NCBI GenBank assembly: GCA_032718865.1
Contig: JALUTQ010000009.1
Location: forward strand, 310,001 to 374,000
Length of the DNA: 64,000 bases
Source: Tilletia caries
Lineage: Eukaryota; Basidiomycota; Exobasidiomycetes; Tilletiales; Tilletiaceae
Reading direction: 5' to 3'
Under the pieces are notes generated by a model, which had not been told where the DNA came from, made no database searches, and saw only the letters and a list, made by a program, of their open reading frames with translations. Positions 13,030 through 61,580 of the stretch are shown piece after piece. The number at the start of each line of letters is the position of its first letter. The first letter of the stretch is position 1. The position numbers and the translations under genes were made by a program.

Positions 13030-13150
13030 CGTCCTAGCGGACTGGACGATCCCCGATTCGTTCAAACGGTCACGTGAATGTATTGGGTCTCGGTATCACA
13101 ACGGTTCGCTAGCTTCGCCTGGGGATACTGAGGCTAGGCACAGATACATA

Positions 13151-13774
13151 CACAGGAGAAAGGGGGTTAGGATTGTTTAGAGCAATAGCTATACAACAGC
13201 TATGCTATTGGGGGGGGGGGGGTCCAATAGCCTTGTCAATGAGAGATACGCCTGACAAGCTGTTGTAAAATCCCAATCCCTTTAAATTGAAACTTGGTTT
13301 TGACGCTAAAAAGTTTCAGAGTCTCAATCCCAACCCGCTACCCTTTTCTGGAGGCGATCTGGATGGGTGGCGGTCGTCTGGACACCTGCCCCGGCTCGCG
13401 GAGGATGCTGACGCTGGGAGCGTGGCCACACGATGAGTGCACCACCCCCCGCCCTGCCATTCCGCGAGGAGAGTATATCAGGCAAGCGTAATTCAATGGG
13501 CCTATGCCCGCGGTGATCCTGCCGCGTTTGGGCCCGAGCATCTGTAAGGTCAGGACTGAGCACGTGACTTGACGCGTCGTCGCGTCGAAGATACTCCAAA
13601 CACGGGTGAGGTGAGACTCGTCTGGTGGTCTTCTGCGCTAAAATAGGTCCAAAATCCCTGAACCTGCAATAGGTACGACAATACCCTTAAGGTATTGACA
13701 AATCCCAATCTTGCCCAATAGCTGTACCTATTCGGAGGATTGACAAAGAGATTGGGAGGGCCATTTCTCCTGTG
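13151..13774 (+). mobile_element. MITE copy 1 (CACAGGAGAAA termini, 3-bp duplication ATA)
   Basis: A 624-bp element with inverted ends CACAGGAGAAA / TTTCTCCTGTG, flanked by ATA on both sides (13148-13150 and 13775-13777). It is almost identical to 34383-35011 in opposite orientation. The inside has a G-run near 13209 and no gene. CAC-starting ends with 3-bp duplications fit a non-autonomous CACTA-like element; that placement is inference. Confidence 0.75.
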
Positions 13775-13777
13775 ATA

Positions 13778-34266: not shown

Positions 34267-35468
34267 CACTGCTACCATGGGGGTTGTTTTAAGGGGTGTA
34301 AGACGCTTGTGGAACGCACGTGTTCACCTCATGTTATAATTTTCTATTTTGTTCCGCTGATTTGGGTGTTAAATCACCTTCTCACAGGAGAAATGGCCCT
34401 CCCAATCTCTTTGTCAATCCTCCGAATAGGTACAGCTATTGGGCAAGATTGGGATTTGTCAATACCTTAAGGGTATTGTCGTACCTATTGCAGGTTCAGG
34501 GATTTTGGACCTATTTTTAGCGCAGAAGACCACCAGACGAGTCTCACCTCACCCGTGTTTGGAGTATCTTCGACGCGACGACGCGTCAAGTCACGTGCTC
34601 AGTCCTGACCTTACAGATGCTCGGGCCCAAACGCGGCAGGATCACCGCGGGCATAGGCCCATTGAATTACGCTTGCCTGATATACTCTCCTCGCGGAATG
34701 GCAAGGCGGGGGGTGGCGCACTCATCGCGTGGCCGCGCTCCCAGCGTCAGCATCCTCCGCGAGCCGGGGCAGGTGTCCAGACGACCGCCACCCATCCAGA
34801 TCGCCTCCAGAAAAGGGTAGCGGGTTGGGATTGAGACTCTGAAACTTTTTAGCGTCAAAAACCAGTTTCAATTTAAAGGGATTGGGTTTTTACAACAGCT
34901 TGTCAGGCGTATCTCTCAATGACAAGGCTATTGGACCCCCCCCCCCCCCCCCAATAGCATAGCTGTTGTATAGCTATTGCTCTAAACAATCCTAACCCCC
35001 TTTCTCCTGTGTCTAATGGTGTTAAAACCCAGTAGGCATAGTGATCACGTGACTGCTGCAGGGACGCGGGAAGGTGTCGCCGTGTCCTGCGGTTTGCGCA
35101 GCCGTGTGCGATGGTTAGGGAACGGGAGCTGTTTGTCCAGGGTGAGGCTGGTACTGAGTGATAGCATGTTGATGAGACAGGTGACAGGTCAGAGAGTGAG
35201 TGATGCAGTTGAAGCTCGGGCCGTGTGAGCCGGAATGCCGAATGAGTCCCGCCAACGTCAGTCGCGAAATATAAAAAAAAAAAAATTCTCAACCATTTTG
35301 CAAAACCCTCTAAAGCATGAGTCCGCACCACCTAAAACGCTGCAGTTTTTGCCTAACCCTTAAAACGCCTCCACAACAGGGATGTTTTGAGAGAACCGTA
35401 AAATCATTGTAAAACAAATTATTACGAAGTGCTATACACCCCTTAAAACAACCCCCATGGTAGCAGTG
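34267..35468 (+). mobile_element. CACTA-like MITE, hosting a nested MITE
   Basis: Inverted ends of 34 bp: CACTGCTACCATGGGGG at 34267-34300, with its reverse complement at 35435-35468. Both sides are flanked by GGT (34264-34266 and 35469-35471). Without the nested element at 34383-35011 it is about 570 bp long and non-coding. An additional short inverted match (CCAGTGAGT / ACTCACTGG) lies just outside and may belong to an older element. Confidence 0.7.
34383..35011 (-). mobile_element. MITE copy 2 (CACAGGAGAAA termini, 3-bp duplication TCT)
   Basis: A 629-bp element in inverted orientation relative to 13151-13774 and nearly identical to it. Flanks are TCT on both sides (34380-34382 and 35012-35014). 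It contains a long C-run near 34936-34953. It is inserted inside the outer element with CACTGCTACC ends, so it is younger. Confidence 0.75.
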
Positions 35469-35833: not shown

Positions 35834-35842
35834 GGACTGGGG
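35834..35842 (+). repeat. Left 9-bp target-site duplication, copy 1
   Basis: GGACTGGGG, identical to 43209-43217, directly abutting the inverted terminal repeats of the DUF6589/RecQ element. Confidence 0.85.
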
Positions 35843-35926
35843 TAATCACAACGTGTGACCGCCGGCGTGCCCGGCGACGCCGCAAGGCGGTCACATGACA
35901 AGTGCTGAGGTTTCCGGCAGAGCTGG
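35843..35926 (+). repeat. Left terminal inverted repeat with hairpin, copy 1
   Basis: TAATCACAAC, then a hairpin GTGACCGCC (35855-35863) / GGCGGTCAC (35886-35894) with an inner GGCGT/ACGCC stem, then GTTTCC and GGCAGAGCTGG. The order of blocks matches the right end read inwards, but the stem sequence differs. Confidence 0.8.
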
Positions 35927-36793
35927 AAGCGGAGTTACCAAAGTCACACACGATCACCCTTCATTCTGCCAGATGCTATCCTGCTGCTGATACTCACGTC
36001 AACATCGAGCAAGCCCATCTGCACACTGTGAGCAAGCAGATATCAAGGCCCAACAGTTCCTATCACACGCTGACCTCTTCTCTCTGTCTCTGCGCTCGCT
36101 GACTATCGCATCTATACTGTTTCCCCTCTTCCTCCCTGCTGACTCTTTCCCATCCTCTACTGTTGTCCCAACCTTCCAACAGGCACATCCCCTCCTTCTA
36201 CCGCGCATCAAGAGCCAACGCGCAGCCTTCGGTGACTCCTGGCAGTCTTGCTGGTTGTGCTTGCGGGGTTCTCGTGCGCGTGTCCTGTCGTCACGTAGCT
36301 GTGAAGTGTGAGTACCGCGTAGTCATTCTAGTCTTCTCTCCAAGCGGCAAGCGTCATCTTTCTGACTTCCTAATTCCCAACCGTGCACAGTTCATCAGAA
36401 GACGACATCCGCGCCTCCTCAGTCCTCGTATACGGTATATGTGAGTGCGGAGTGTCCTTTTTATCATCAACACTTGCGCGACTATTTCACAATGATGCCT
36501 AAGCCTAACCCCCAGTGTTTTTTTCGCATTTTTCAGAACACTGCTCAATTCAAATCGGTATTTCTGCCTTGTTCGACGTGTGTACTGGCTGTGCCTGGAT
36601 TTATAAGTCTGAGATTCACAGCAAAGCGATTAAGGTGAGCTGAGCCCAGATGGGATTCTTCACAATCACCAGTTGGCGATTGGCTCTAGACTCTAGTCTC
36701 CTACACATTCTGCTTTTTATGCTCGATGTAGGACGCTGAAAGCTGACGCATTTACATGACTTTTTTCCTTTTCTCTTCGATCAGCATTCAGCT

Positions 36794-39792
36794 ATGGCAA
36801 CGAAACTCTCAGACGATAAGACCCGGCGTATTGACGCTGTGCTGGATGCCATGTCCGACAATGAACTACAACTTCAAAATCTCCTAACTGAAATGCTGTT
36901 GAGCAGGTCTGACGCGGCAAATAGAAGGGTCGGTCTTTGGATCACTGGCGCAGCAGGTTCTGCTATCTCTACATACGGACCAGCTGAGCTCGTTCGGTCA
37001 CTCATTCAGCACGTCAAGGAAAGAGCCGTTCCCGCCGCCCAAGCCCAATTCAACGATGCCATCATGACTTATGCAGCCCAAGTCATGCTGAACGAGCTAC
37101 GCAACTGCCGGCGCGACTCTTTTTTGCACACTCCCTCGGCCACGTTACACTCGGTTGCTTCAGGACAAGGTCAATGGGTTGCCCTCCTCGACCATTATCA
37201 GGAGCGATATCCGACAACTTCAACCTTCCTTCGCCATCTCATTCCGACTTCTCCCACCAACCATACAACAACATTGAACGGACACGTGGATGGGAGCGGT
37301 ACAGCTTCTGATGGAGACCCGGGGGAGAGTGAGGACGAACACAATGAGGGGGAAGCGCAGGCAGATGGAGAAGGATTAGAGGAGGAGGAGGAGGAGGAGG
37401 AGAACGATGAAGAGGAAGGAGAAGGGTTGGACCAGGATGAAGATGCGATGGATGTGGACGATTCTGATCATTCAGATCTCAGGCCGATGAGCAAGGCCGA
37501 AAGGGTATGAGTATAGATGTGCAACGTGACCCTGTGACCTGTCAAATGAGCGCTGAGCTGACATCTTTTCTATGCCTTTCAGACGATGACGGTAGTGTTG
37601 TGAACATTCTACCACTATACTAAAAGGTGAGACCAGTCTCGACCCAAGTGTCATGGATGATGCATATATCCAACAGGTAGTCATCTCTGCTCTACTATTC
37701 TCGCAGAGTCGACAATGCAATCGATTCCAATGCCTCAACGCTGTCTTCTGCGAGCTTTCGAACACATCGTCGCTGATTTTCAACTTCCTCAATCGCCTCG
37801 GAATCACAGCGTCTCAGCGTTATGCCTATCGAGCTGTGACGTCGATGTCGACACGTATGGTGGAACAAGCTGCTTCCTCGGCTCGTAAGCACGATCGGAT
37901 ACCAATCTTTGTGCTGGACAACATCAACATATACGTTCGCCCCGCTGAGCAACGGATACAGCAGAGTCCTACCATGCATTCATTCACGATGCGTACAATG
38001 TTGGAGCTGGGACCTGAGTTCAAACCCGCAGACCTGACGATCGAAGACTGCGAAGCGCTCAGATTGGCGGACAAAACAGCACTCCAAGTGAAGGATCTCG
38101 AACCGGACGAGTCTTTTTCTACACGATGCAGCACTCATCCACATCAGTGAGGTCCTCTTTCGTCACATGAAGCTCTCTCGCCGACGCCGAAAGCAGATCT
38201 TGTCCGAGGTCCACCGAATGCGTCGAAATCACGATATTGACGTTCTCACCACTACTCAGACTGAAATCCACCCTCTCAAACTCGTACAGGAGGACGAAGG
38301 CAACTTGTCGGGAATGCAGCAAGTGCTGCATCAGACGATGAGAGATGTGGGATGGAATGTGGGCGACAAGGCTCTTCCAGTGGTGGGAGACCTGCTTACG
38401 GTCAACAATATCCTCAGCGTTGTCGCGGTGTCCGAAGACGAGCCCGAACCCATCAATCAACTCAAGTTCCTGGCTCCTTGGGCCGCGCCATGGCACATGC
38501 TGCTAGCATGGACCAGGCTGCTCTTTCGTCAGAACTATCTCACTGGCAAGGCAGGGTCAGATCTCTCGCTGGATCGAGTGCGAGAGATGCTGAATCGCGG
38601 AAAGACGGGATTGAACGAGAAGGAGCCTCAGTTCAACGAGGGTTGGGCCCTGCTACGACATACTTTCGAAGGAAGACTTCTTGCGGCCATGAAGTGAGTA
38701 GCTTTGTCCTGTCGCTGCGTCTTTATCCGGTCAGCATGCTCATGAAGCTCTTCAATCTTCAGCACCGTTATGGGAGAGGAATGGAATATAGCAGAATGGA
38801 CACCTCCGAAGCGCGACTTCTTTGCAGCCTGTCGCCGCCTGTATCGTGATCATATCTCTCCGGAAGCGGTGGTCACTGCTCAACAGAACAAGGACCAAGT
38901 GAAGGCGGCGGCAGGTCTGTTCTTGCGGGACTCTCTCATTGGGATAGAATACGAGGACGCAACGAAGAAAGGAGACATCGGTCGCATGGCGCAAACGGAG
39001 AGATACATGCTTCTCGGCTTCATCGCCATTGGACAACATAACTACAAGAACAATCTGCTCAGTCGCGCCCTTGCGGCCAAGGTCCTTCCATCCCGGGCCC
39101 TGCGAGTCTTGTACGGGGCGTCGTTGGTGAACAGGCATGGAAGAGCGGGAGATTGGGAGGCAGCGGATCATCTACAGGAGACGTTTGTGAAAGAGGTAAA
39201 GGTGAGCACATCGCACCGCGTCCTGAATCAGATGGCGCCAGGCGATGTGCAAGAACTGACTTCACTTGCACATGAGCAGGCTACAGCGTGGACGCAGAGT
39301 GGTTCCGATCTTGGACAACGCCTGGAAGACCGAATCTCGGCACTGCCGCACGTCTCTCAAGCAACCAAGATCACGGCGAGTGCCCAGCTTGGGCTTCAAC
39401 TTCATATCCGTCAACGCACAGCGAAAGATGCGTCAAGAGACATCACCTTGATACAATCCACGTCAACAGGCAAACGGCTGTTCACTGTGACTCCGCATCG
39501 TGGTCTGGAGGGTGCTGTGCAAAGGAAGAAGGGTCGCAAAAAATATGGTAAAGCTGTTGCAGCCGCATGGAAAGACTTTCAAACACTTCACAGCAAGATT
39601 CATGTCGACGATATCATCTCACAAGGATGGTCCAAACTTCGCAACGGCAGCTTGCGCAAGTTCCAACGCTCAGGAGATGCACTTTTGATTCGGGAGGCAA
39701 TGCTGAAGACAGTGGTGCGACAATCGGACGAGGAGGAAAGCAGCGAGTCCGGCGACGAAGGAGCAGGCGATGGTGTGGATGACGAGCAATAG
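36794..39792 (+). pseudogene. DUF6589-domain protein (candidate transposase), copy 1
   Basis: Exons 36794-37504, 37583-38693, 38763-39201 and 39280-39792. Leaving out the 80-bp insertion with one 5-bp duplication and one extra T (T5 run 38114-38118) gives 895 residues without a stop. The N-terminal domain (KTRRIDAVLDAMSDNELQLQ) is followed by an acidic linker. The core then has VVISALLFSQSRQCNRFQ, LNRLGITASQRYAYRAVTSM, IFVLDNINIYVRPAEQR (D-N motif), KALPVVGDLLTV and PQFNEGWALLRHTFEG. The C-terminal part contains FLRDSLIGIEYEDATKKGDI, with acidic residues also kept in copy 2. Its position inside terminal repeats with target-site duplications makes it the likely transposase (inference; DUF6589 has no defined function that I know of). 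The acidic residues noted are candidates for the active site. Confidence 0.75.
37596..37675 (+). mobile_element. 80-bp TG..CA element (solo-LTR-like), 5-bp duplication GGTAG
   Basis: It starts TGTTGTGAACATTC, ends ATATATCCAACA (5-bp inverted termini TGTTG/CAACA), and is flanked by GGTAG at 37591-37595 and 37676-37680. It differs from 56668-56747 by one base. It lies in exon 2 of the DUF6589 gene. Removing it with one duplication restores TMTVVISALL. TG..CA ends with 5-bp duplications are typical of LTRs. Excision as an intron (GTAG..CAG, 85 nt) would also restore the frame exactly. Confidence 0.85.
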
Positions 39793-39888
39793 GACGAAGC
39801 GGATAGGGGACTGCGAGCGCGACTCGCTGCAGAGAGGAGCGATGGTGGACTTCTGAACGAGATGTAATCCGGGCAAAGAGGAGTGAAT

Positions 39889-42743
39889 TCATGCGATGTT
39901 CAGAGTGTTGACTGTTGCGTGCGGAAAACCAAACTCACCATCAAGCTTGATGTGTTTTCTTCTCACGCCAGTCACCACCTTTGGTGAGATCCTTTGCAAA
40001 GTCTTGAGCAGTGGACTGACGTGCCCAAGTAAAGCAAGCATCGGAGAGAGATTGCAAAAAAAGAAAGCGGGCAAGATGTCCGCTTCGGTACCCAGGAGCT
40101 GCCGAAGCGGCTCCACGTCGAATCGATGATAGGTTGCTCCTAGTTTCGCTATGCGCCCTGCCATCGCTACGATGCGAACCACACTGAGATCAGAGAGAAC
40201 GCTTTCGGGAGAGGGAAGAAACCCTCCATGCGTTCTTCGCTGCTGAAATAGTTGGTGCCGCCAGTCCAGGAGATGCTGCCCAAGGCTGAGACGGAGAGGG
40301 GACAGAGCTGCATGTGGGCGTGGAAAACGATAGGCTCTAATTGAGCGGGAAGATTCGGCGGCTTCGGGTATTTCGCGTATGTCGAACACCCTCAATGGCG
40401 AGTCGGGCACGCAAACGTCGCAGCATGACGTGGCTGCACATTCGCGTCGCTCGCTCGATGGCTCGATCCAGAGACATGCTTGCATGCGGCTGTGAGACGG
40501 AGAGGAATCCGACATGAACGGTAATTGCGGTGAGACTGTGTTGTGCGGTGAAGCAAGAAAGAAGAAGGAAGACTCGATCAGCTGAGAATGCATCCACTCG
40601 AAATCCATCCTCATCGACTCCATCACCACTGCTCGTCGACAGCAGCCACCCTGAACAAAACGCAATAGCGCGGGCTCGACTTTGGCTCGCCGAGCAGCTT
40701 TGGCCGAGGATGGTTCGTCTCCGCCAGTGCCTCTGGCGGCAGAATGGCTGGTATTAGCGTGTTGAGAAGCGGAGTTGGTGGTGGTGGTGAGGTTGTTCCG
40801 GATGTTGTTTGATTCAAAAGCCCACGACTCAGCCAACAAAACAGCGACCCCTGTTTTGCTCAGCTGCCGCACGGCACGTCCCGCATGTTGAAAAAACTCG
40901 GTCAACGTTCGAGAGAGTCGAAACTGGATGATGAGATCCACATCGGCCACATCGAGTCCCATGAATCCGAAGACCGCTCGTTTTGTAGAAGCGCTGCAGC
41001 ACGTCGGTTTTCAGCGCATTGGTGCCCAGAGACGTGAACGAGCAGACGGTGGAGGCTAGGCAGGGATCCAGAAAACCCTTAATGGCCTCTGCTGCCTTGT
41101 ATGCCTCGTTCTTGGTCCGGACATAGATGATTGTCTTGGGTATGTGTTCGGGCTGTTTTTGCAAGGGGGGGAGAAGAAGGAAGCGAGATCACGAAACGAG
41201 GTATTGCTGTAGGACATGGCGCGCACCTCGAGCCTGATGTTGGGACGATCTGTTCCTGCATCACAGGCAAAGAAGCTTTGTCTGCCAAAGTCCAATACTC
41301 TCCAGGCGGTCTTGAGGGTGCTGGAAGGAAGCGTGGCGGTACAGGCAAGCACAGGAACACGGGCTCCAACGAGGTGCCGGAGCACACGGATCTTGCCAAA
41401 GTCGGGTCGAAAGGCTTCTTTTGTGCGGAGACTTTCTTGCGTGCCCCATTCGTCGACGACGTGGGCTTCGTCAATGAAAAATTCCGCCAACCTTGGCCCG
41501 AAAGCTCTTCTGCGAGAGGGCGTGAGACACGGGAGAGTTGGAAATCAGAGTCTCTGGAGAGGCAAAGATCAGATTGAACGCGCCACGCTTCAATTCTGCC
41601 AGCAGTTGCGCGCGACGGCTCTGCCTCCGTTCTTCTTCCGTAAGGCTGCTGCTCGTCGCACTGCAGGCAAAGATGAAGAGAGTCCTGATTAGCACAAAGT
41701 CACAAGTCACAACAGATCAAGATGTACATGTACTCTTCCGAGTGTCGACAGCGACTCATTCATTGACCATTCTGTTCCTGTCTCCAACCCAAGTTCCCAA
41801 CCGTCTCTGAATCCTGCTCTGCGACCTGCGTCGAGAATCGGGGTTCCGCACCCTGAACCTAGAGCGCATTCAATTCCACCCATCCCAATGAACAGATCTC
41901 TGAGCCGGAAGTCCAGGTGTCAAAGACTCGGCGGCCAGGCTCCGTTGTACCCATTAAGCCCACAACACGCACACTCTGACCTCTGTACGCAAGACTGAGA
42001 ACGTACCTTTGACTCTGGAGATCAGGTATAACCTCTCTTCTTCCGCTCAGGGTCTCTGCGTCCAGATTGATGGCCTTGATCGTTGTACCCTTGAACTTCG
42101 ACGCCTGTGTGAATCACGATGGAGATATGGACAATGAAGACCCAATAAGGAATATCACAAGTCACAACACGGTCAGAATTTGGAACTCAGAGATATGGAA
42201 ACAACAGAATAATGGGCCAGTGTACATGAAAGTGGGACTCACTTGTTCCTCCTGAAGAGATTGCAGCGGAGAAACGACTATGAAGGTCATGTCAGGGCGA
42301 AGCCGGGCGGCAAGCTCCATCAACATTGACTTTCCAGACCCTGTCGCAGACATGACTATGCCATCGTGCCCAAGAAGCATTCGACGCACAGGTTCAACTT
42401 GAAAGTGAGCAAGTTGAAAAGCTGCGTCATTTCGTGCCGCCCGAATCACCGCCTGGGCTCGACGCATGAACTCCTTCTGGGACTCGACCGAGTGTTCTCC
42501 GTCCTGTTCGTGGTCTGATTCGTCCTCCCAATCCTCCTCCTTGTCCATCTCTCCATCTCTGTCGTCTGTGCGGCTGCGCCTGGGCCTGCAACGACGCGCC
42601 GCATCAGTTGACTGCTCCGATGTTGAGGGCTGTTGCGGCTCTGCAGGACTGGAATCTCGAGCTGCTTTGCGCTTTGACGAACGCTGAGACCGAGTTTGAG
42701 GACGTACGTTGTTGCTGACATTAGCGAGCGGCGTGCGAGGCAT
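39889..42743 (-). pseudogene. RecQ-like DEAH helicase, copy 1 (decayed)
   Basis: Exon 1, 42743-42243, has an acidic leader then HDGIVMSATGSGKSMLME (Walker A) and TFIVVSPLQSLQEEQ. Exon 2 is 42104-42007 (KFKGTTIKAINLDAETLSGR). Exon 3 starts at 41660 (FNLIFASPETLISN, then IDEAHVVDEWG, VPVLACTATLPSSTLK, KTIIYVRTKNEAYKAAEAIK). Motif V/VI is MGLDVADVDLIIQFR and FQHAGRAVRQLSKTG. Frames break at an A5/T5 run (41477-41481, one base extra), a G7 run (41165-41171, one base short) and a small deletion near 40990 that removes sequence before motif V. It resembles RecQ 3'-5' helicases but lacks a recognisable RQC or HRDC domain. It is convergent with the DUF6589 gene in the same element. Confidence 0.75.
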
Positions 42744-43137
42744 ATTGGTAACTTGGTACTGTCATGGTATGATGGTTCTGGCTCACTGGCAACTGGCAAG
42801 GTTCAAACAATGCGTGACAAACGGCAGACGCGTATCAATCTCAAGAACAGATGCGTTTATTGCGCAGTGGTGCTGAATCCAATCAGAGTGGTTGTGAGTC
42901 GTGACGCGTGACTCGTGAGTCGTGACAGAATCTCAGCGGCTCAGTGCTCAATCTTGAAAAAACGAAGTTGCAAGTCACCCTCCCACACGGTCCCAACGAT
43001 AGCTAGGATTCTCAAACTCCGCAAGAAGATACTGATACACGCGATCTCAAAATATTGTTACAGAGTCAAGAGATCTTCATAAGCTGCATCTCGAGCTGGG
43101 AGCTGTGGAAAGGAGGGCATTTGGCCGTTTTGGTCAG

Positions 43138-43208
43138 CCAGCTCTGCCAGTTTTTGGAAACTCGTCGCGTGACCCCCCCGACAAGCGGGGGGTCACGGGT
43201 CGTGATTA
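43138..43208 (-). repeat. Right terminal inverted repeat with hairpin, copy 1
   Basis: Read inwards: TAATCACGAC, then a 10-bp-stem hairpin (GTGACCCCCC at 43169-43178 / GGGGGGTCAC at 43187-43196), GTTTCC and GGCAGAGCTGG. It pairs with 35843-35926 in block order. Confidence 0.8.
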
Positions 43209-43217
43209 GGACTGGGG
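43209..43217 (+). repeat. Right 9-bp target-site duplication, copy 1
   Basis: GGACTGGGG, identical to 35834-35842. Confidence 0.85.
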
Positions 43218-50933: not shown

Positions 50934-53762
50934 ATGAAGGAGATGCCTGCGTACGAGGTAAGCAATCACTGGAGATCTTGTTGCATAGCTGTGCGTACTA
51001 TGCAAGATCTGACGCCACTTGATATCACTCAGCCGGAACCTGCGAAGAGGCCCATCGAGTTCTTGGACGAGCCGCAGAGCGTCGCTGGCCCTAGCGCTGC
51101 ACGAACTCGCGGACGTCCAACAGGGATTCCGATGCTGGATGCAGATCATGATGATGGTGGTGAGTACATGCAGTGGTGTCCTTGCGTGGAGTATGTTTTT
51201 GAACACAGACTCATTACCCTCTCTCTCTGGTTCAGATGCACGCCATCCTAACCCAGCTCCTCCGCCACGGCCGCCGTGGCTAGACCCCGATCTCCCGCCC
51301 CGGCTTGGCCCCGCAGACTACGAACACTACCAGTCCAACCCAGCTCCCCCCTTCGCCGCCACCGCCAACACCGCAAGATCTCGCACCGCCACCACTGCCG
51401 TGGCTGGACCCTACTCTCGCTGAGAGGGATCGGCCCCCCTCCGCCTCCCGGGTTCGAACTGCAACCATCGCAACCACCGCAACCGCCGCAACCGCCCACC
51501 TCATCATGGGAATCTATTGCGCGGCTACCAGCGAAGGACAAGCAGGATGCCCTAATTCAAGCACTCCGGTCCAGTCAGAAAGATGACTGGAAGGCCAAAG
51601 TCAACAACCTTCTTGACTTTGCGACGAGCTCCTTGGTGGCGGAAGTTCGAGTGGCGATTTTATTGGCGGCTGCACCAATTTTTCGCACCATGGTTTACGG
51701 ATGAGTCAAGCAGACTCTCGCGAAGATTGTGGGGCATCACAGGAGAGAGCTGGACGCAAGAATCCGCAAGGCTTTCAGACGCCTTTTTCTGCGGGCAAGG
51801 ATTGGGAATGGGCAACGACTGTCCATCAGCCACGAGCCAATCGGGAACAGGGCATCATTTCTGCTTCATCCCTGCGGTTCAGTCGACAGCAACTCATCTC
51901 TCGTAACGACATGGGGCAAAACGTTTCGGATGCGCGAGAAGGGGCACGCTTTTGGGAGTGCAGGACGTGGGCAACTCAGCGGCTTTGGGATGCATTCGTG
52001 GCGCGGGGCTTGAATACCTCCTCCCTCACGAAGCCAAAGGGGTCGAAGAGGGATACGGGAAAAAGAAAGATGGAGGACGGAGAAGGCAGCAGAGATTCAA
52101 AGAAAGTGCGCAAGCTATCTTACGACGCCGACTCTAAGGCAGCCTTCGAGAGACGTGCTGCCAAGGACAAGAAGAGAGCTCCACCCAAGCGGAAGGAGCC
52201 GGAATGCTTACGAGCTTTGCGACTTCGACTCTATCCTTCGGCAGAACTTGGAGCAAAGCTCCGGGAGTGGGAATCATTGGCGGCCTCTTTGCGACAGATG
52301 GTTCGCGCTCGCCTCCAAAAAGCAAAGGACGTCGGAGAGAAAACGGATGCCTTCTTCTTGGCCGACCAGACTTGTCTCAGCCAAACGAAATGGAACAAGA
52401 TGACTGCAGAGGAGAGGGCTTCAGTCGATCAGAACCGTCAACGCCTCATCGAACTTCCCCACAATTTTCAACGCGAACAAGTCCTCAAGGTGGCGGCGAA
52501 CGCTCGAGCGGCGCAGACAAACCTGGAGCGTGGATGGACAAAGTCCTATCGACTTGATTCCGCCGACGAGGATGATAAATCCGTTCTGTTCTTCACATCA
52601 GACGCCATCGATAAGCGAGGAGCACTATTCCCACGCATCCTCAAGCACATCGACTCCAACCTTTACGTGCGAGATCGCATGCTGGCTGGACCGGGCGAGC
52701 GCAGGAGAAAGCGATCGGACTGGGTCAAGCTCCTCACGGGAGCTTCCAGAAGCTTCAGCATTCACAGGACAGGCCGTAAGTGGTACTTGCTTCTGAGCCA
52801 CGACGCTTGGACGGGACCATACACAGAGGAAGGAAAACGGCAGGGGTTGGACAAGGGATGGAACTCGCGCAACAAAGCAGTCTTCGAACCGACAAAGCGA
52901 GCCGGAAACTGCATCGCATTGGACCCCGGAGCTCGCGATCTGCTTAGCGGCTACGATGCTCAACGGCAGCAGTTTTTACACTTATCTGACGGGTTTCAAC
53001 GAGCACATCGAACGGGCCCATGCAAGCATCGCAAGTGCGCAGTCCAAGCTGGACAAACTCAAGAATGAGACGGGGCCCACGGTGGACACCGATACCGGCA
53101 GAAGAAGACGTCGAGCGCGTCGGCGAGTCAACAAGCAAAGAGGTGGCAAAAAGAAGAAGGGCCGGTCTAGCTCGGCCGAGCAACGCGCTGCCCGCAAGGC
53201 CGCCAAGAAGAGCCATCCCCACTTCGTCCGCCCTAAAGAAAGGTCGATTTTGAGAGCACACGAACGGCTTCGAGTACACATCACACAGGCCCCAAACTGC
53301 ACCGTTAATGCCCTCGTATCCAACTACGACCTGGTGGTACTGCCGGAATTCATGACCGCGCGGATGATCAAGCGCCGACGTCGACGGCAAGGAATGCCAT
53401 ATTCCAACGTACCGCAGCGAGAGGCGGCGGTACAAGGCGATGAAGCAAACGAGGAACCAGCTGCCAAGTTCGTTTTGGCAAAGCGCTCTCGAGCTACCTT
53501 AGCTCGTTTTGGACATCGGCAATTTCGAGAGCGGTTGGTGGCCAAAGCACAAGCTGATCCCAACCATCAAAAGGATGTCCTCGTTACATCGGAGGAGTAC
53601 ACGACGAAGCAGCACCCCTTTCAACGCGGTCTGCACAGCAAGATCGGTGGGAACAAGACCTGGCATTACTGCCATCTCCGGGGTAAACGTGACAACGTGG
53701 GCGCGTTTAACATTCTTCTGCGCGCACTTACGAAAGACGAAGTGCGGCTCAGCTCCCAATGA
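50934..53762 (+). pseudogene. Fanzor (eukaryotic TnpB-like OMEGA nuclease), frames broken
   Basis: Exons 50934-50957, 51033-51159 and 51236-53762. The reading is continuous for 890 residues if one base is discounted in each of five runs: C6 51346-51351, C6 51434-51439, T5 51679-51683, T5 51784-51788, T5 52973-52977. The Pro-rich N-terminus is followed by a bridge/wedge-like part (LRALRLRLYPSAELGAKLRE) and a split RuvC: IALDPGARDLLSGYD (Asp at 52922), LVVLPEFMTARM (Glu at 53346) and KRDNVGAFNILLRAL (Asp at 53691). A conserved SEEYTTK precedes the usual zinc ribbon, but here CxxC positions read QHPFQRG and YCHLRG, so the ribbon looks lost. Fanzors use a guide RNA to cut DNA. The copy is either decayed or misread at homopolymers. 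Confidence 0.8.
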
Positions 53763-53888
53763 TCACCAGCAGAACTTCACGCTTACGCCCTGTCTCAAGG
53801 GCCACATTGACTCAGGTCTCCAAACAGGAATCCTGCGGAAACATGTGAATATACTGAGAAGCCTTTACCCGCAAGGCTGAGCGAGTCG

Positions 53889-53897
53889 AGCAGCGAG
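53889..53897 (+). repeat. Left 9-bp target-site duplication, copy 2
   Basis: AGCAGCGAG, identical to 61572-61580, abutting the left terminal repeat. Confidence 0.85.
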
Positions 53898-53978
53898 TTG
53901 TCTCGAACGAGACGCCTCCTGCTCCGCCAGGAGGGTCTCGTGTCAAATGTGGAGTCTGCAAGTGGGAACGACCGACGG
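53898..53978 (+). repeat. Left terminal inverted repeat with hairpin, copy 2
   Basis: TTGTCTCGAAC, then hairpin 53909-53939 (GAGAC + CCTCCTG pairing with CAGGAGG + GTCTC, one bulged G), then an inner block with GTGGAGTCTGCAAGTGGGAA ending about ACCGACGG. The inner block is nearly identical to the right end. Confidence 0.85.
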
Positions 53979-55080
53979 TGCGGGTCGACCGCACCCATGA
54001 ACCTCGTCTTCTCGGCAACGCCCAGCCTTCCTGCTGCTCAACACTCACATCCATCACTGATCACTCGTTGTGCCTTGAGTGCGGACTCTTACCATCGTGC
54101 TGTGAGTATTTGGTGGCGTGTGGCACTGCGCAAAGATCGAACCAACTGCGGATTACGCCTTCATGCTTGTCACCCGTTACTGACATGGCTCACGCGTCTT
54201 CTCATATACTTCTATCTTTTCAACCCCTCTTCTTCCTTCCTCCTTTCCTATTCCTGTTGCCTTTCTTCTCTTCCCTTTCACAGGTATCAGGAGCATCGCC
54301 GGGCCTTCTTTCTGGTGGTCCCGCCCCGCTGCCGAGCCTGTGTGCTTATTGTTGCCTGCTTCCGTTGTGAGTGGCTCGGCACCTCCACGGCCCCATGCCC
54401 TTCCCACTCTTCATCGAACCTCTCTTCTCAATTGACGTTTAGCCCAACATTGCATTCACAGCTTTTCGAGTCTCCGTCTCGGCGTCCGCCCCTCTCTTGT
54501 GGTTTTCCGGCTCAAGGCTTTACACGCGTTCGTCTCTGCAATATAAGCGATCATAACCCATAGAGCATCACACGGGAGACTTCAAGAGTGATATTTAGCG
54601 CTATATCTGGAACTGTGAGTAGCAGTCACTTGCCAATGCATCCGCAGATCTCCAGGCTTTTATTTCTTGCATTTTGAGCTGGAATTCACTCATCCTCCTA
54701 TTGATATCTTTATTGCAGTCTTCGGACCAGAAATCCGTCTGCCTTTCTGCTCGTAACAACCATCTGAGAGTTAGGCCTGGTTGTATTAATTTACTGCCAG
54801 CGGCGGGCGGCCTGCGTGTATCCTGCGTTATTACTGTTAACTTGTGAGTATGAAGAAGAATCAGAGTATCGGACATACGTTAAGTGTTAAGTGCCAAGTC
54901 ACAAATGCTCAGCCGACCCTCGTCTACACCGCTGACTGATCAAGTATCTCACACCTCATTATTCCTTGATACGTCTATGGCTGCAGACTGTAGATTACAG
55001 ACTACCCCGCGCGGCCGCGCCTCGCGCCTTCCTCTCACCTTCAGAAATCATATTCAGCAGTCGAATACTCCATACTCTCA
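53979..55080. other. Subterminal region of copy 2, no gene seen
   Basis: 1.1 kb between the left terminal repeat and the DUF6589 start. It is rich in C/T tracts near 54190-54300. Short ORFs lack coding character; it probably holds the promoter. Confidence 0.4.
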
Positions 55081-58000
55081 ATGTCGAACCAGGAACGTCG
55101 ACAGGCTAAGTTGCGCGACATACTGCAATACATACGGCAACAAAACCTCTCCTTCCAAGAGTTCGTTGTCGGAGTGATAGGTTCGCAGGATCCAGATGTA
55201 CGACTCTCCTCAACAAAATGGCTCGACAGTCATGCCAGTACGGATGCATCGAAGTACGGTCCGACTGTCATCCTGTCCACAATGAGCAAAGCAGTGCGGA
55301 GTCGAGCAACCCCAGACCACGTTCACGGTTACAATTGTGCTTTGGCGGAATTATCTACCTCGTGTTTTTTACAAGAACTGGAAGCTGCCGCGGCCGATAA
55401 ACGTCTCAAGGTGCCCGCATCTATGAACGACAAGCAAGGCCATAATCTTGAGGATGCGATTGCGGGAGGGTTCGGCGAGATCGAGACGGTCTACCAGACT
55501 TTAATGCCATCAACTATGGCTCTATTCTCGGTACTTGCTGGACGGGTTCCTCATCAACCCCAGGAAGAATCTCCCAGCCCCAAGGTCGGACAGTCGACTC
55601 CAGACTCTCTTCTCTCTACCAATGCCATGGAGAATGGGGATCAGGTGGATTCGATGGAGGTGGATGAGGAGGACGTCACGGAGGCTGAAATCCACATGGA
55701 TAAGAAAGACATGGTGCGTATAATGAGGAGTGAACGTCACCTTGGTGGCTATGCTTGTCACACCAAGGTTCTGACTTCTGACTGGTCTTCTATCTGGACA
55801 GTGTGTCATCACAGCTCTGTCGTGCCTGCTGGGGGCTCGAAGCACACGCATCAACCGCTTCCAGATGATCTTCGGTACTCTGTTTGCGATGCTACGAGTC
55901 CCAAAGCTGGCCCTCAGAGTGATGAACATGTGCGAGATCTGCGTTTCTTACAGCACCGCAGCCCGCGCGATGGAATCTATCTCATCGTCAGCAACGGACA
56001 AAGCCCACCAGCTCATGGAGGTACACCAGAACCGAGTTGCCTTCTTCTTCGACAATGTCAACATATCAGTCAAGCATGTTGTCCCAAGGCTGACTACTTC
56101 GAACGCCTCTATTGCTTTGACATCCCGTACCTTATTCTCCTTACCCCCAGAGTGCAAGGTCATACTTCAATCCGATGTGGACGCTCTGTCAGGAATCAAC
56201 AGGGACTTGGCAGGCATCCATTTGCTCCTGAAAAACGTCAGCCCCGGCGAAAACATCAACGACAACGATACTGTCTCGACTGGAGACTCAAAGGACATCA
56301 TTCACCGGGCAGCAGTGTTGCACATTGGACGATCCCTGCTTCAGTTCCTGCGCGTCGATCAGTCCCGCCGCAAGACTCTGATGGCTTCACTTCGGCGTCG
56401 AGTCGCCAAGCATGTTTGGAACAAGCTGGAGCCATCAACAACAGTTGTTGTCCCGCTCAAGCTCGTCAACGTCAATGAGGGTACCGTGGAAGGAACAAAG
56501 TCCGTTCTCGAGCAGACCATAGCCGAGCTCAACCTTCGGGCTGGAGTCACCTCTCCACTGCTGGTGGGGGGCGACCTTCTCACGGTGATGAATGTCAACG
56601 CAGCTCGCTACGCAGCTCGATGGGAACTGGACAAACAGAAACAGCTGACGAATATATATGCTGTAGCTGTTGTGAACATTCTACCACTATACTAAAAGGT
56701 GAGACCAGTCTCAACCCAAGTGTCATGGATGATGCATATATCCAACAGTAGCAGGTCCATGGCATCTGCTGTTGAACTGGGTATATATGATGTTCCACCT
56801 GTACGGTGAGACGGTCCGCTCGTGCGCCTTGGATCGCTTGCGTCAAGCGCTCGGCAGAGGCAAAACGGAACTCGACCTCAAACGTCCTCAGTTCGACGAG
56901 GGTTGGGCGCTGCTGCAGCACGTTTGGGAGGGACGAATTCTGTCCGCAATGGGGTCAGTTAAACATCACACTTCACAGCCGTGTGTTTCCAGAAGCGTTA
57001 TGCTGATGCTAGCCCCCCTTCCTCCAATTCTGCGTACATCTTGTAGACACGAGCTGGCAACAGCCGGAGAGACCATCGATGATTGGAACCCAGACACCAA
57101 AACGTTCTTCGACGCTATCGATAGACTGTACGAGAATCATCTCACCCAGAACGCCCTTTTTCAAGCCCGGGATGCCAATGACAACGATCGAGCGACCTCA
57201 ATTTTGTTCATGCGGGACTGTGTCGTGGGTCTTGAATACGCAGAGGCAATCAAAGCGGGCGACCTTGGAAGAATGGCAGAGGTAGAGAAACCTCTCTGCC
57301 TATCGTTCTACGGCGCGGGTCAAACCAAATACGGGTCGTTGCTTTTGGATCGAGCCCTCATCGACCGTGAACAACCAGTCGTGGCGAAGACTCTTCGAGC
57401 AGCTCAGTTGGTCAATCTTCACGGGCGTAAGAACGGATGGCAGGGAGCGGACCTCTATCAAGAGCAGCTCAATCGTAGATTACTGGTGAGTATGGGTTCA
57501 TCGGCCTTCTTCATGCTTAGACCTGTTGCACATCAATGCTTGCTCTCTTACCCTTAATCTCTCTGCTCTCCTCTTGCATCGCAGATGTTTCACCCTAGTC
57601 AGTCACCAAATCACACAGCCATTCGATATGAAGACAGGATGTCAGCGTTTGTTGGGTTGGGGCAGAGGCTGGTCGCTAAGGTACAACGCTCGCTGGACAT
57701 GATGACGGACTCTCGGCACAAGAAGTCAGAAGAAGAAGGCATGCGAGGCGGACATTAGGCTCCTGGCAAAAGATGCAGATACACATCGTCTGAACGTTGC
57801 CCAAGGGCCAAGAGCGTCCTCGTACAGAACTACTGCCATCCTCGAACAACTCAAAGAGGAAAAGCAAGATGTCGGCAATGGAACAAGCGAAGCAAGTGTG
57901 GAGCGAGAACAAGGAGCAGACGACGGCAAAGGATGTGATCGAGATGGGATACCTGAAGCTCATTGGGGGTGCATTACAGCGATACAAAACCAAAAACAGG

Positions 58001-58159
58001 GATCTTCGAGCGCGGGACGTGGACGTTTACCAGATTGCTACTGGACGGGAGAGCCCGGAGCCGGGACCAAACGACGGGCCACACGGCCGCGCAGAGCAGG
58101 GAAATTCTGGAGCAGGAGGGGCGGGAGAAGCTCTTCCGGACGACGACGCCGTGAACTAG
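55081..58159 (+). pseudogene. DUF6589-domain protein (candidate transposase), copy 2
   Basis: Exons 55081-55713, 55802-56953, 57047-57485 and from 57585. The N-terminal domain is LRDILQYIRQQNLSFQEFVV and ILSTMSKAVRSRA. The core is VITALSCLLGARSTRINRFQ, AFFFDNVNISVKHVVPR (D-N motif), GVTSPLLVGGDLLTVMN, GPWHLLLNWVYM and PQFDEGWALLQHVWEGRILS. The C-terminal part is FMRDCVVGLEYAEAIKAGDL, LVNLHGRKNGWQGADLYQEQ and AKQVWSENKEQTTAKDVIEM. An 80-bp insertion at 56668-56747 brings a stop codon; without it and one 5-bp duplication AVAGPWHLL is restored. A further frame change lies near 57715-57745. Block order and conserved acidic residues match copy 1. Probably inactive as it stands. Confidence 0.75.
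56668..56747 (+). mobile_element. 80-bp TG..CA element (solo-LTR-like), 5-bp duplication GTAGC
   Basis: Same family as 37596-37675 (one base different). Flanks GTAGC at 56663-56667 and 56748-56752. It interrupts the DUF6589 coding frame between AVA and GPWHLL; no GT..AG splice choice I tested restores the frame, so here it disrupts the gene. Confidence 0.85.
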
Positions 58160-58313
58160 GCTGAACATCAGCTGCTGGAAGATGCCGGCTGTCGTCAAGA
58201 AGAGATGGACGAAGGCGAAGTCAGTGATGACTGATGCATGAACATGATGGGAATATACAGCAACTACATTACCACCATCCCAAATAAACTCACATGCAAT
58301 GTTTTGGAGACTT

Positions 58314-61054
58314 TTAAGTAGGACGTGATGGTCGCGGTGCTGGGTGGCTGAGGAATGCACCTCTGGAGCTGATGTGATGCATGACCTCCGTGTTTGAGGC
58401 CGAATACGATTTGCACCACTGGTCAACTGCAAGGGCTAGAGAGTCGATGATGCCGGGATAGATCAGAGAGACCAAAGGACCTAGGTCCTCCACCAGCAGC
58501 TCGGTAGTAAGTTCTTCTTCCCGACCACGACTGGCAAGGAAGCGCGTGGTCAGAGCAAGGATGCGCTCTGCCACAAGATCAGGTAAGAGCGCGCGGGAAG
58601 GCAGAAGGGAGGGAAGTTGCCGGCTCTTGTGTGTTGTAGATCGCCAAAGGATCAAAGCAGCTTTGAGGCTCTGCTGTACCACCAAGAACTTCGGATGGGC
58701 CGGTGGAGCTGACACGACCGAACGAGAGGATGAGGAGCTGGCGGCGGTCGTGAGGGCTGTACCCAGAGTGGCTGATGCTGTAGAGCTGGAAAAAGCTGCT
58801 GCTGCCAGACTGCCGGAGCAGGGGCGCGAGGTGCAGCAAAATTCGGCTGTGACAGATGTCGGTGGTTTGTGTGTGGAGGCAGCGAGAAGAAATTCGTTCG
58901 AAGGGTTGTCCGAGCACTCCGCAATGTGGTCTGGAATAGTCCAGAGCCCACCTTTAACACATCGCAATGAGAACAAAACCTCTTCGACCGTCCGCAAGTT
59001 GAGGCGGGTCTCCGAAATGATCGTTTGCCTGACGCATACGTTCAAGTCGGTTATCCGCCGAAGACTTGCTGAGAGGGCGCTGCGCTGACGCTCGGCGTGA
59101 GCGGAGATCGTCATGGTCTCGTTTCCGGAGTCAACGACGCTCCAACGCTGCGCCAGTAGGCTCGAGCGTCCGGGTTTCGACTTCACGCGCATGGTTCGCC
59201 CAAAGTGTTGAGCCAGATCGAGAACGTCGTTGGGGATCTCGAACTGAACGACATGATCGATGTCTGGGAGATCGATGCCCAGACCTCCTGCTTCAGTCGC
59301 AATCAGGACACGCACGTGGCCTCCAGGCTGAAATGCGTTCGAGATCGTGTCCAGCTTAAATTCAGAAGAGGACAATGCTGTAAATGGTCGGACGATACCA
59401 TCAAAGGCAGGTCCGAAGCTGTCGAAATGATGCTGCAGGGCTGCCGCCGCCTCGTACGCCGCCGCTCTCGTCCGCACGTAGATGAGGGTCTTTGGGACCG
59501 CCTGTGGGGAGGATGGGGGCGATGTGAAGAGAGAGATTAGATCATTGAAAGAGCCAGCTGAGTGTGCCAGGGGGGAGACCGTGTAAGCAACGTTCGGTCG
59601 ATCTACGCCGGCTTCGATCGCGAACGTGTGTTTTGCTCCAAAATCGAGCAAAGGCAGTATGGAACGAACGGTCGCCGCAGGAAGCGTTGCAGATACTGCC
59701 AGAAGGGGAAGGTGAGCTCCGAGACGAGTGCGTAAGGTCTGTATCCTGCTGAAAGCAGGGCGGAATGGCAGGGCAGATCTCGCCGAGGGTGTAAGACCCC
59801 ACGTCTGGACCACATGAGCCTCGTCGACGACCAGGGCTCGCAGTCGACCTTTGAAGATCGGATCCTTCAAGAGGTCCTGCACAGATGGATTGTCGAGGAC
59901 TGCCTCAGGCGACGCAAACACCAAATGAGCGTGCTCCGAGATGATCATTTTGCGAAGATGCTGTCGTCTGAGCTCTTTGATTCGGTTGTGGCCGACTTCA
60001 GATTCTGCACTGCTAATGAAGAATTGACGAACACATGAACAAGACAATGGTAAATCAGCAAACTGAACGCATTTGTCAACAGCGGATCAGCGATGACAGA
60101 ACGTAGCCCATCAGACCTTCAAGCCACCCCACATTCGACAAAGAAAAGACATTCTCCATCAGATGCCAGCTGCCGCAGGCTAGCAGAGTAGCAGGCGTCG
60201 GCCGTCACCACGAAGCCATCCTGCATTCTCTGTGCCTTCCAACACCAAACTGTGCATCGAATATGTAGTGACACTCCATCCTCCATACGACCATACCTCT
60301 CTGTCTGCCGGCTGCCCTTCCCTCACGCTAGGTTCTCGGAGCTCGTCCACCCACTCACTCACTGACGCACCGAGCCCCTACCCACAACAACACGTCTGAG
60401 ACTCAGGAGACAGGAAGATACTCACTTTTTGACCGTATAGAGAGACTCAGAGGTAACTTGACTGAGAGACACGGCCCGAATCTTGGTGTCGCGGTATTTG
60501 CCGACCTAGATGAGAACAAGCAATGAGGCAAGGAAGAGAACGCAAGGTCAGAGAGAGTTAACGCGAGCATGGCAAATTGGCAGGTAACATAGAACAGCGC
60601 GACGCAACATCCAGGGACTACTCACCTGGTCGGCTTCTAGTGCGATGAGAGGACAGATAACCATGATGGTGTGCTGTGGATATAGAAGTGCCAGCAACTC
60701 CCATATGAGGGATTTCCCAGATCCTGTAGCGGCTCCATAGATGCCGTCCCAGCCGTGATACGTTCGCAATGCAGCTTCGAGCTGCTCTTCGCGAGGCTGG
60801 AATTTGGGATCGCCCCGGAAGACGCGAACAAGATCGATTAAGGCCTGTACTTGCTCGGCAAACGGCGCATCTGCGTTAAGGGCTGGAGGGGCACTCTCTG
60901 ACGAGACTGTGTTCATGCTTGTTGGTGCGCCTGTCGCCTGCTTTGCACCGCCAGCGCGATCCACATCTTGACTGAGCCGCTCACTGCGCCGCCGCTTTCG
61001 CGCAGGTCCTTCTTCGTCATCAGAGACTCGATTTGTGATATCTTTAAGAGCCAT
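58314..61054 (-). CDS. RecQ-like DEAH helicase, copy 2
   Basis: Exon 1, 61054-60626, is a basic/acidic leader (MALKDITNRVSDDEEGPARK) then FQPREEQLEAALRTYHGWDG, IYGAATGSGKSLIWELLALL (Walker A) and TIMVICPLIALEADQ. Exon 2 is 60505-60426 (GKYRDTKIRAVSLSQVTSES). The last exon runs to 58314: HLVFASPEAVLDNPSV, VVDEAHVVQTWG (DEAH box), LPLLAVSATLPAATVRS, KTLIYVRTRAAAYEAAAALQ, VRVLIATEAGGLGIDLPDID, then LAQHFGRTMRVKSKPGRS where motif VI reads GRTMR rather than GRAGR. The Ser/Ala-rich C-terminus has no recognisable RQC/HRDC domain. It is expected to unwind DNA 3'-5' in the nucleus, and the conserved pairing with DUF6589 suggests a role in transposition. Introns between 60,426 and 60,050 are approximate. 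Confidence 0.8.
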
Positions 61055-61489
61055 AGAAGATGAAGGCTGATAGGCGAGAGCTGTAAAAGTAGATACTGGA
61101 CGCTGGATGTACGAGTGATGGTCAAGACTCAAGACAAGATCAAGATTCAAGAGACGCGTGAGAGTTGAGACTGCTAATGAGATGGCGTGTCGTCGCAAAC
61201 TTGCGATATCAGACAGGCAGACCTCAGACCTCGGATTTCACGGCTCCGCTCCCTCCACAATCCACATCCAGAAAGAGCAGCTGGATAGCCAAACCTCATT
61301 TCTGCAGCCTGCGCGCTGAATTTTCCACTTTGTTCAGGGCTGTGTGGAAGGCCACCAGGACCATCAATGCACCTCAAATTTGAACAGGAAGAACATGTAC
61401 ACACATTGAGAAGCTGTCCAAAATTATGGGGGAACTTGTTAAGTGAGATCAAGAGCAATCTGGACTCCAAGAGGGGGCAAAACGAGGTT
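61055..61489. other. Subterminal region of copy 2, right side
   Basis: 435 bp between the helicase start and the right terminal repeat; no gene seen. Presumed helicase promoter. Confidence 0.4.
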
Positions 61490-61571
61490 GCCGTCGGTCG
61501 TTCCCACTTGCAGACTCCACATTTGAGACGAGACCCCCGCGCCACGACGGGGGGCGTCTCGGCCGAGACAA
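61490..61571 (-). repeat. Right terminal inverted repeat with hairpin, copy 2
   Basis: Read inwards: TTGTCTCGGCC, hairpin at 61560-61530 (GAGAC + CCCCCCG / CGCGGGG + GTCTC), then the block shared with the left end to CCGACGG. The hairpin is 31 nt in both ends of copy 2, with two T-A pairs replaced by C-G pairs. Confidence 0.85.
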
Positions 61572-61580
61572 AGCAGCGAG
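61572..61580 (+). repeat. Right 9-bp target-site duplication, copy 2
   Basis: AGCAGCGAG, identical to 53889-53897. Confidence 0.85.

Follow-up and report, generated by a model that had tools for sequence, protein, structure and literature searches.

A 64-kb stretch of Tilletia caries DNA, referred to here as the window, contains two genes lying tail to tail, one encoding a DUF6589 protein and the other a RecQ-like helicase. Do these genes make up a mobile element, and if so, to which kind of transposon does it belong? The initial annotation had proposed a type not described before. We identified a genuine group of DNA transposons with several families in this genome. The element in question is, with a probability that we put at roughly 85%, an AcademH-type DNA transposon that moves by cut and paste, in which DUF6589 is the probable transposase and the RecQ-like helicase an accessory protein.

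Boundaries and genes of copy 2

The element, designated copy 2, occupies positions 53898-61571 of the window. It is bordered by the perfect 9-bp duplication that had been claimed for it: AGCAGCGAG is found exactly at 53889..53897 on the left and at 61572..61580 on the right, and the match stops at 9 bp, with unequal adjoining bases at both sides. The inverted ends, initially put at about 80 bp, are 81 nt each (left, 53898..53978 on the plus strand; right, 61491..61571 on the minus strand) and 84% complementary. The left flank consists of the end of a Fanzor-like repeat and approximately 35 bases that match nothing else, and the sole match of the right flank is itself; no empty site was seen.

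The ends had also been described as bearing hairpins, which are clear at the left end and weaker at the right. A hairpin is predicted at approximately 53907-53941, and the fold of the left 48 nt is better than that of 199 of 200 shuffled sequences; when all 81 nt are folded, equally good folds arise in 10 of 200 shuffles. The corresponding 48 nt of the right end surpass 190 of 200 shuffles, but over 81 nt as many as 98 of 200 are just as good.

Directly to the left of copy 2 there are Fanzor/TnpB-like reading frames (51617-53862), in which a Cas12f1-like TNB domain scores 22.6 bits, under the cut-off of 26.3. The right end of this Fanzor-like repeat occurs at eight further places, seven of them on contig C34. 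Elsewhere in the window, the two arms of an inverted repeat, each about 630 bp long (13150-13775 and 34382-35012), are 98-100% complementary and are separated by about 21 kb.

The DUF6589 gene, which encodes the probable transposase, lies on the plus strand at 55081..58159 and has several exons; its start, end and splice sites are estimated from open reading frames. The helicase gene occupies 58314..61054 of the minus strand, with its start estimated in the same way, leaving an estimated gap of about 150 bp between the two convergent genes. Pfam scans of plus-strand pieces detected DUF6589 (PF20231) on two of them at 40 and 125 bits (cut-off 27). This is the sole family above cut-off among the DUF6589 pieces scanned, and two pieces of the gene had no match at all. 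The minus-strand match to Helicase_C reaches 47.7 bits (cut-off 23.5), and two DEAD matches, at 22 and 23.9 bits, are both under the cut-off of 26. In the PDB, the helicase is most similar to RecQ proteins (top E 2.9e-10), which rank above the DEAD-box RNA helicases in the list of 59 entries. We take the sequences at approximately 60736 and 59825 to be its Walker A and DEAH motifs.

The claim that the ends enclose exactly two genes is correct as regards the convergent DUF6589 and RecQ-like genes, but the element also contains a solo 80-bp LTR-like repeat (TGTTG..CAACA, 56668..56747, plus strand) flanked by a 5-bp duplication, GTAGC. This secondary insertion interrupts the DUF6589 reading frame. 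A sister copy on contig C35, 98.6-98.7% identical to copy 2 over two aligned stretches, has an empty site at this position. The sister resides at a different insertion site (C35 at 1.53 Mb, duplication GGCGGACCG) and carries an in-frame TAG within DUF6589. DUF6589 is not intact in either of these two closest copies, and substitutions between them are too scarce for judging selection. Long open DUF6589 frames are present in other families, for example those on C23 and C25.

The 80-bp repeat was considered as a MITE or an intron, and both readings were rejected; it represents the direct repeat found at the termini of a TRIM-like element, about 355 bp long, that makes 5-bp duplications (loci L013, L015, L034 and L036). 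The repeat is matched at least 42 times across the genome, and solo copies are found in both DUF6589 genes of the window, at 56668-56747 in copy 2 and at 37596-37675 in copy 1, the latter possibly inside an intron. In the C35 sister, about 5.7 kb of inserted DNA with a GTCTC duplication divides the left inverted repeat in two (C35:1525203-1530936; L006 and L002), and a lone 42-bp fragment of this left end is found at C1:1294259 (L007).

Related elements across the genome

We searched the genome (38.1 Mb in 40 contigs) for both genes. The 75 DUF6589 matches were grouped by hand into 48 loci, and the helicase exon of copy 2, used as query, gave 67 matches. Of the 48 DUF6589 loci, 42 have a convergent helicase match no more than 6 kb away. 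Within the same distance, one of the remaining six has a non-convergent helicase match and five have none; conversely, 13 of the 67 helicase matches are near no DUF6589 locus. Such proximity is expected by chance at about 2% of loci, by simple arithmetic from 67 matches in 38 Mb and without simulation. The pairing described for copy 2 is thus general in this genome.

The two genes also diverge together. Their similarity to copy 2 covaries with a Spearman coefficient of 0.89 over 42 pairs, four of which lack a DUF6589 match and were scored zero; without those four the value is 0.88, and it is 0.85 over the 36 loci that are left when copy 2 and its C35 sister are excluded as well. We found nothing in favour of a chance arrangement, or a functional pair, of two host genes facing each other amid fortuitous repeats. 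We regard this explanation as refuted, with a residual probability that is negligible, because mobile copies occur repeatedly: the pairing recurs at 42 of 48 loci, the duplications are at different sites, and near-identical copies are located on different contigs.

We searched for ends at 17 of these 48 loci and located both in 15 cases. The other element of the window, copy 1 (35843..43208, plus strand), has the ends TAATCAC..GTGATTA and a 9-bp duplication, GGACTGGGG, at 35834-35842 and 43209-43217. The 9-bp duplications extend beyond copy 2 and into other families, and are exact in ten of the 15 elements: copy 1, copy 2, its sister at 1.53 Mb on C35, and the elements on C7, C6, C23, C32, C34, C35 (0.43 Mb) and C36 (0.85 Mb). 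Three further elements have 10-bp duplications (C36 at 1.02 Mb, C27 at 1.12 Mb, and C28, where the retrieved sequence covers nine of the ten left bases), and in one (C27 at 0.38 Mb) the duplication matches at eight of nine positions. No duplication was found for the C33 copy, although both of its ends were located.

Loci without inverted repeats or duplications, which would speak against the original proposal, were thus looked for among 17 of the 48. A duplication is present in 14 of the 15 elements with two ends (counting the match at 8/9), but C33 shows none and two loci yielded no ends, one in 9.9 kb of sequence (C25 at 0.27 Mb) and the other in two short pieces positioned by analogy with copy 1 (C4 at 0.16 Mb). 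As a control, the flanks of different elements were compared with each other; they agree at no more than five of nine bases (156 left-right cross-pairs from 13 elements). The duplications therefore do not reflect a shared sequence preference.

Terminal inverted repeats are likewise present in other families and not just in copy 2. The ends open with TAGTC, TTGTC, TAATC or TAGGC in 14 of 15 elements, and the outermost end bases of the C33 element deviate from those of the other 14. We folded eight ends from five elements against 200 shuffles each. A clear terminal hairpin is predicted at both ends of copy 1 and at the left ends of copy 2 and the C7 element (none or one of 200 shuffles as good), and a weaker one at the right end of copy 2 and in the C6 element (8 to 18 of 200). 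The hairpin at the left end of the C23 element is unsupported (75 of 200), and by reading, the right end of the C7 element has none. Since hairpins are clear at some ends and weak or missing at others, they are a frequent feature of these elements and not a general one.

In the C7 element (L070) the left hairpin lies between two copies of GTCTCG and the right end has a single GTCTCG, an arrangement suggestive of gain or loss of the hairpin between direct repeats. In the C27 copy at 0.38 Mb, an insertion of about 440 bp is present in the right end (L081).

DUF6589 as the candidate transposase

Residues of DUF6589 were compared in an alignment of 12 loci, out of 30 for which locus sequence was retrieved. 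An aspartate in the motif GD..T or its variants and a glutamate following (L/F)xD are kept in all 12 rows. The aspartate of a DN motif is found in eight; three rows end short of the site and one is out of frame. Both aspartates are also kept in a second alignment of six rows, two of them nearly identical. In copy 2, these paralogue alignments place the candidate catalytic residues at 56051..56053 (first Asp, DN[VI]), 56573..56575 (second Asp, GDLLT) and 57234..57236 (Glu, RDxxxxxE; from one alignment), all on the plus strand.

Conserved Asp, Asp and Glu residues in this order are the pattern that a DDE transposase would show, and DUF6589 is probably the DDE transposase of the element, the role initially ascribed to it. 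The argument for the catalytic residues is one from sequence. An AlphaFold2 model from an alignment of three pieces of the window had a mean pLDDT of 36.8 and was too poor for use, and a DUF6589 profile had no match in the PDB up to E 10. When the DUF6589 alignment was compared with viral contigs, none of 191 pattern matches was confirmed.

From these features, transposition may be envisaged as follows. The DUF6589 protein would bind the inverted ends, excise the element, and insert it at a target cut in staggered fashion, with 9 and sometimes 10 bp between the cuts, whose repair would create the target-site duplication. The RecQ-like helicase would be accessory, probably opening or remodelling either the ends, which are prone to form hairpins, or the gapped target while it is repaired.

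Relation to AcademH and other transposons

AcademH, the helicase lineage of the Academ superfamily, reportedly goes back to Kojima (2020, Mob DNA 11:15). Like AcademH, the elements described here pair the probable transposase with a helicase gene, as seen at 42 of 48 loci; the helicase is of RecQ type by its PDB matches. A published account of the superfamily gives duplications of 9 or 10 bp for AcademH and of 3 or 4 bp for AcademX, and ties this contrast to the encoded helicase or nuclease, respectively (PMC10045372); duplications of 9 or 10 bp without mismatch are found in 13 of our 15 elements. A further likeness is the fungal host, as AcademH is reported at low copy number from Basidiomycota, Ascomycota and Mucoromycota (PMC10799480). 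An Academ profile was employed in a study that had noted putative non-autonomous Academ elements in a mushroom genome (PMC8290104).

The proposal of an undescribed type, and of a pairing with RecQ not known before, is not supported, because AcademH with its helicase and its 9 or 10 bp is already in print (PMC10045372) and RecQ helicase was listed for Academ as early as 2013 (PMC3627910). Our comparison with AcademH covers the helicase, the duplication length, the terminal inverted repeats and the fungal host, and shows no difference. Organisation and the occurrence of both 9-bp and 10-bp duplications make a strong case for AcademH, though one short of proof: the main remaining feature, kinship by sequence between DUF6589 and the Academ transposase, is inferred.

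These elements could instead form a separate, undescribed DDE superfamily, in which a DUF6589 distinct from Academ was independently paired with RecQ, arrived convergently at 9-10 bp duplications, and has hairpin-prone ends opened by the helicase. Consistent with this, the name DUF6589 was not mentioned in the literature searched, and the likeness to AcademH is drawn from published descriptions. Nevertheless, two AcademH traits would have to coincide, one of them the joint occurrence of 9-bp and 10-bp duplications, in a kingdom from which AcademH is already reported (PMC10799480), and we consider a separate superfamily unlikely.

AcademX would belong to the same superfamily if the AcademH assignment is right. 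It differs in its nuclease and its duplications of 3 or 4 bp, compared with 9 or 10 bp here, and Pfam scans of the submitted element ORFs revealed no nuclease domain. MULE (MuDR) elements make duplications of about 9 bp and have long inverted repeats, as do the elements described here. Unlike them, our elements carry a RecQ helicase, and the MULE transposase domain (PF10551) was not detected in Pfam scans of the DUF6589 pieces.

Kolobok elements duplicate TTAA. This contrasts with the 9 or 10 bp without a common sequence in the present elements, and weighs against a KolobokH-type element, which we judge very improbable. KolobokH does combine a transposase with a RecQ helicase and is reported from fungi only (PMC9587614). 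However, its helicase is downstream of the transposase, whereas here the two genes are face to face on opposite strands.

If the assignment to AcademH is right, DUF6589, a Pfam family of no known function, becomes tied to a described transposon lineage. The equation of DUF6589 with the AcademH transposase may be useful in itself, as the literature searched makes no mention of the family by name. Fungal gene models with DUF6589 or RecQ-like domains may then in many cases belong to transposons instead of the host. In addition, the near-identical copies, whose ends are clean, lend themselves well to the question of why helicase-encoding Academ elements duplicate 9-10 bp and nuclease-encoding ones 3-4 bp.
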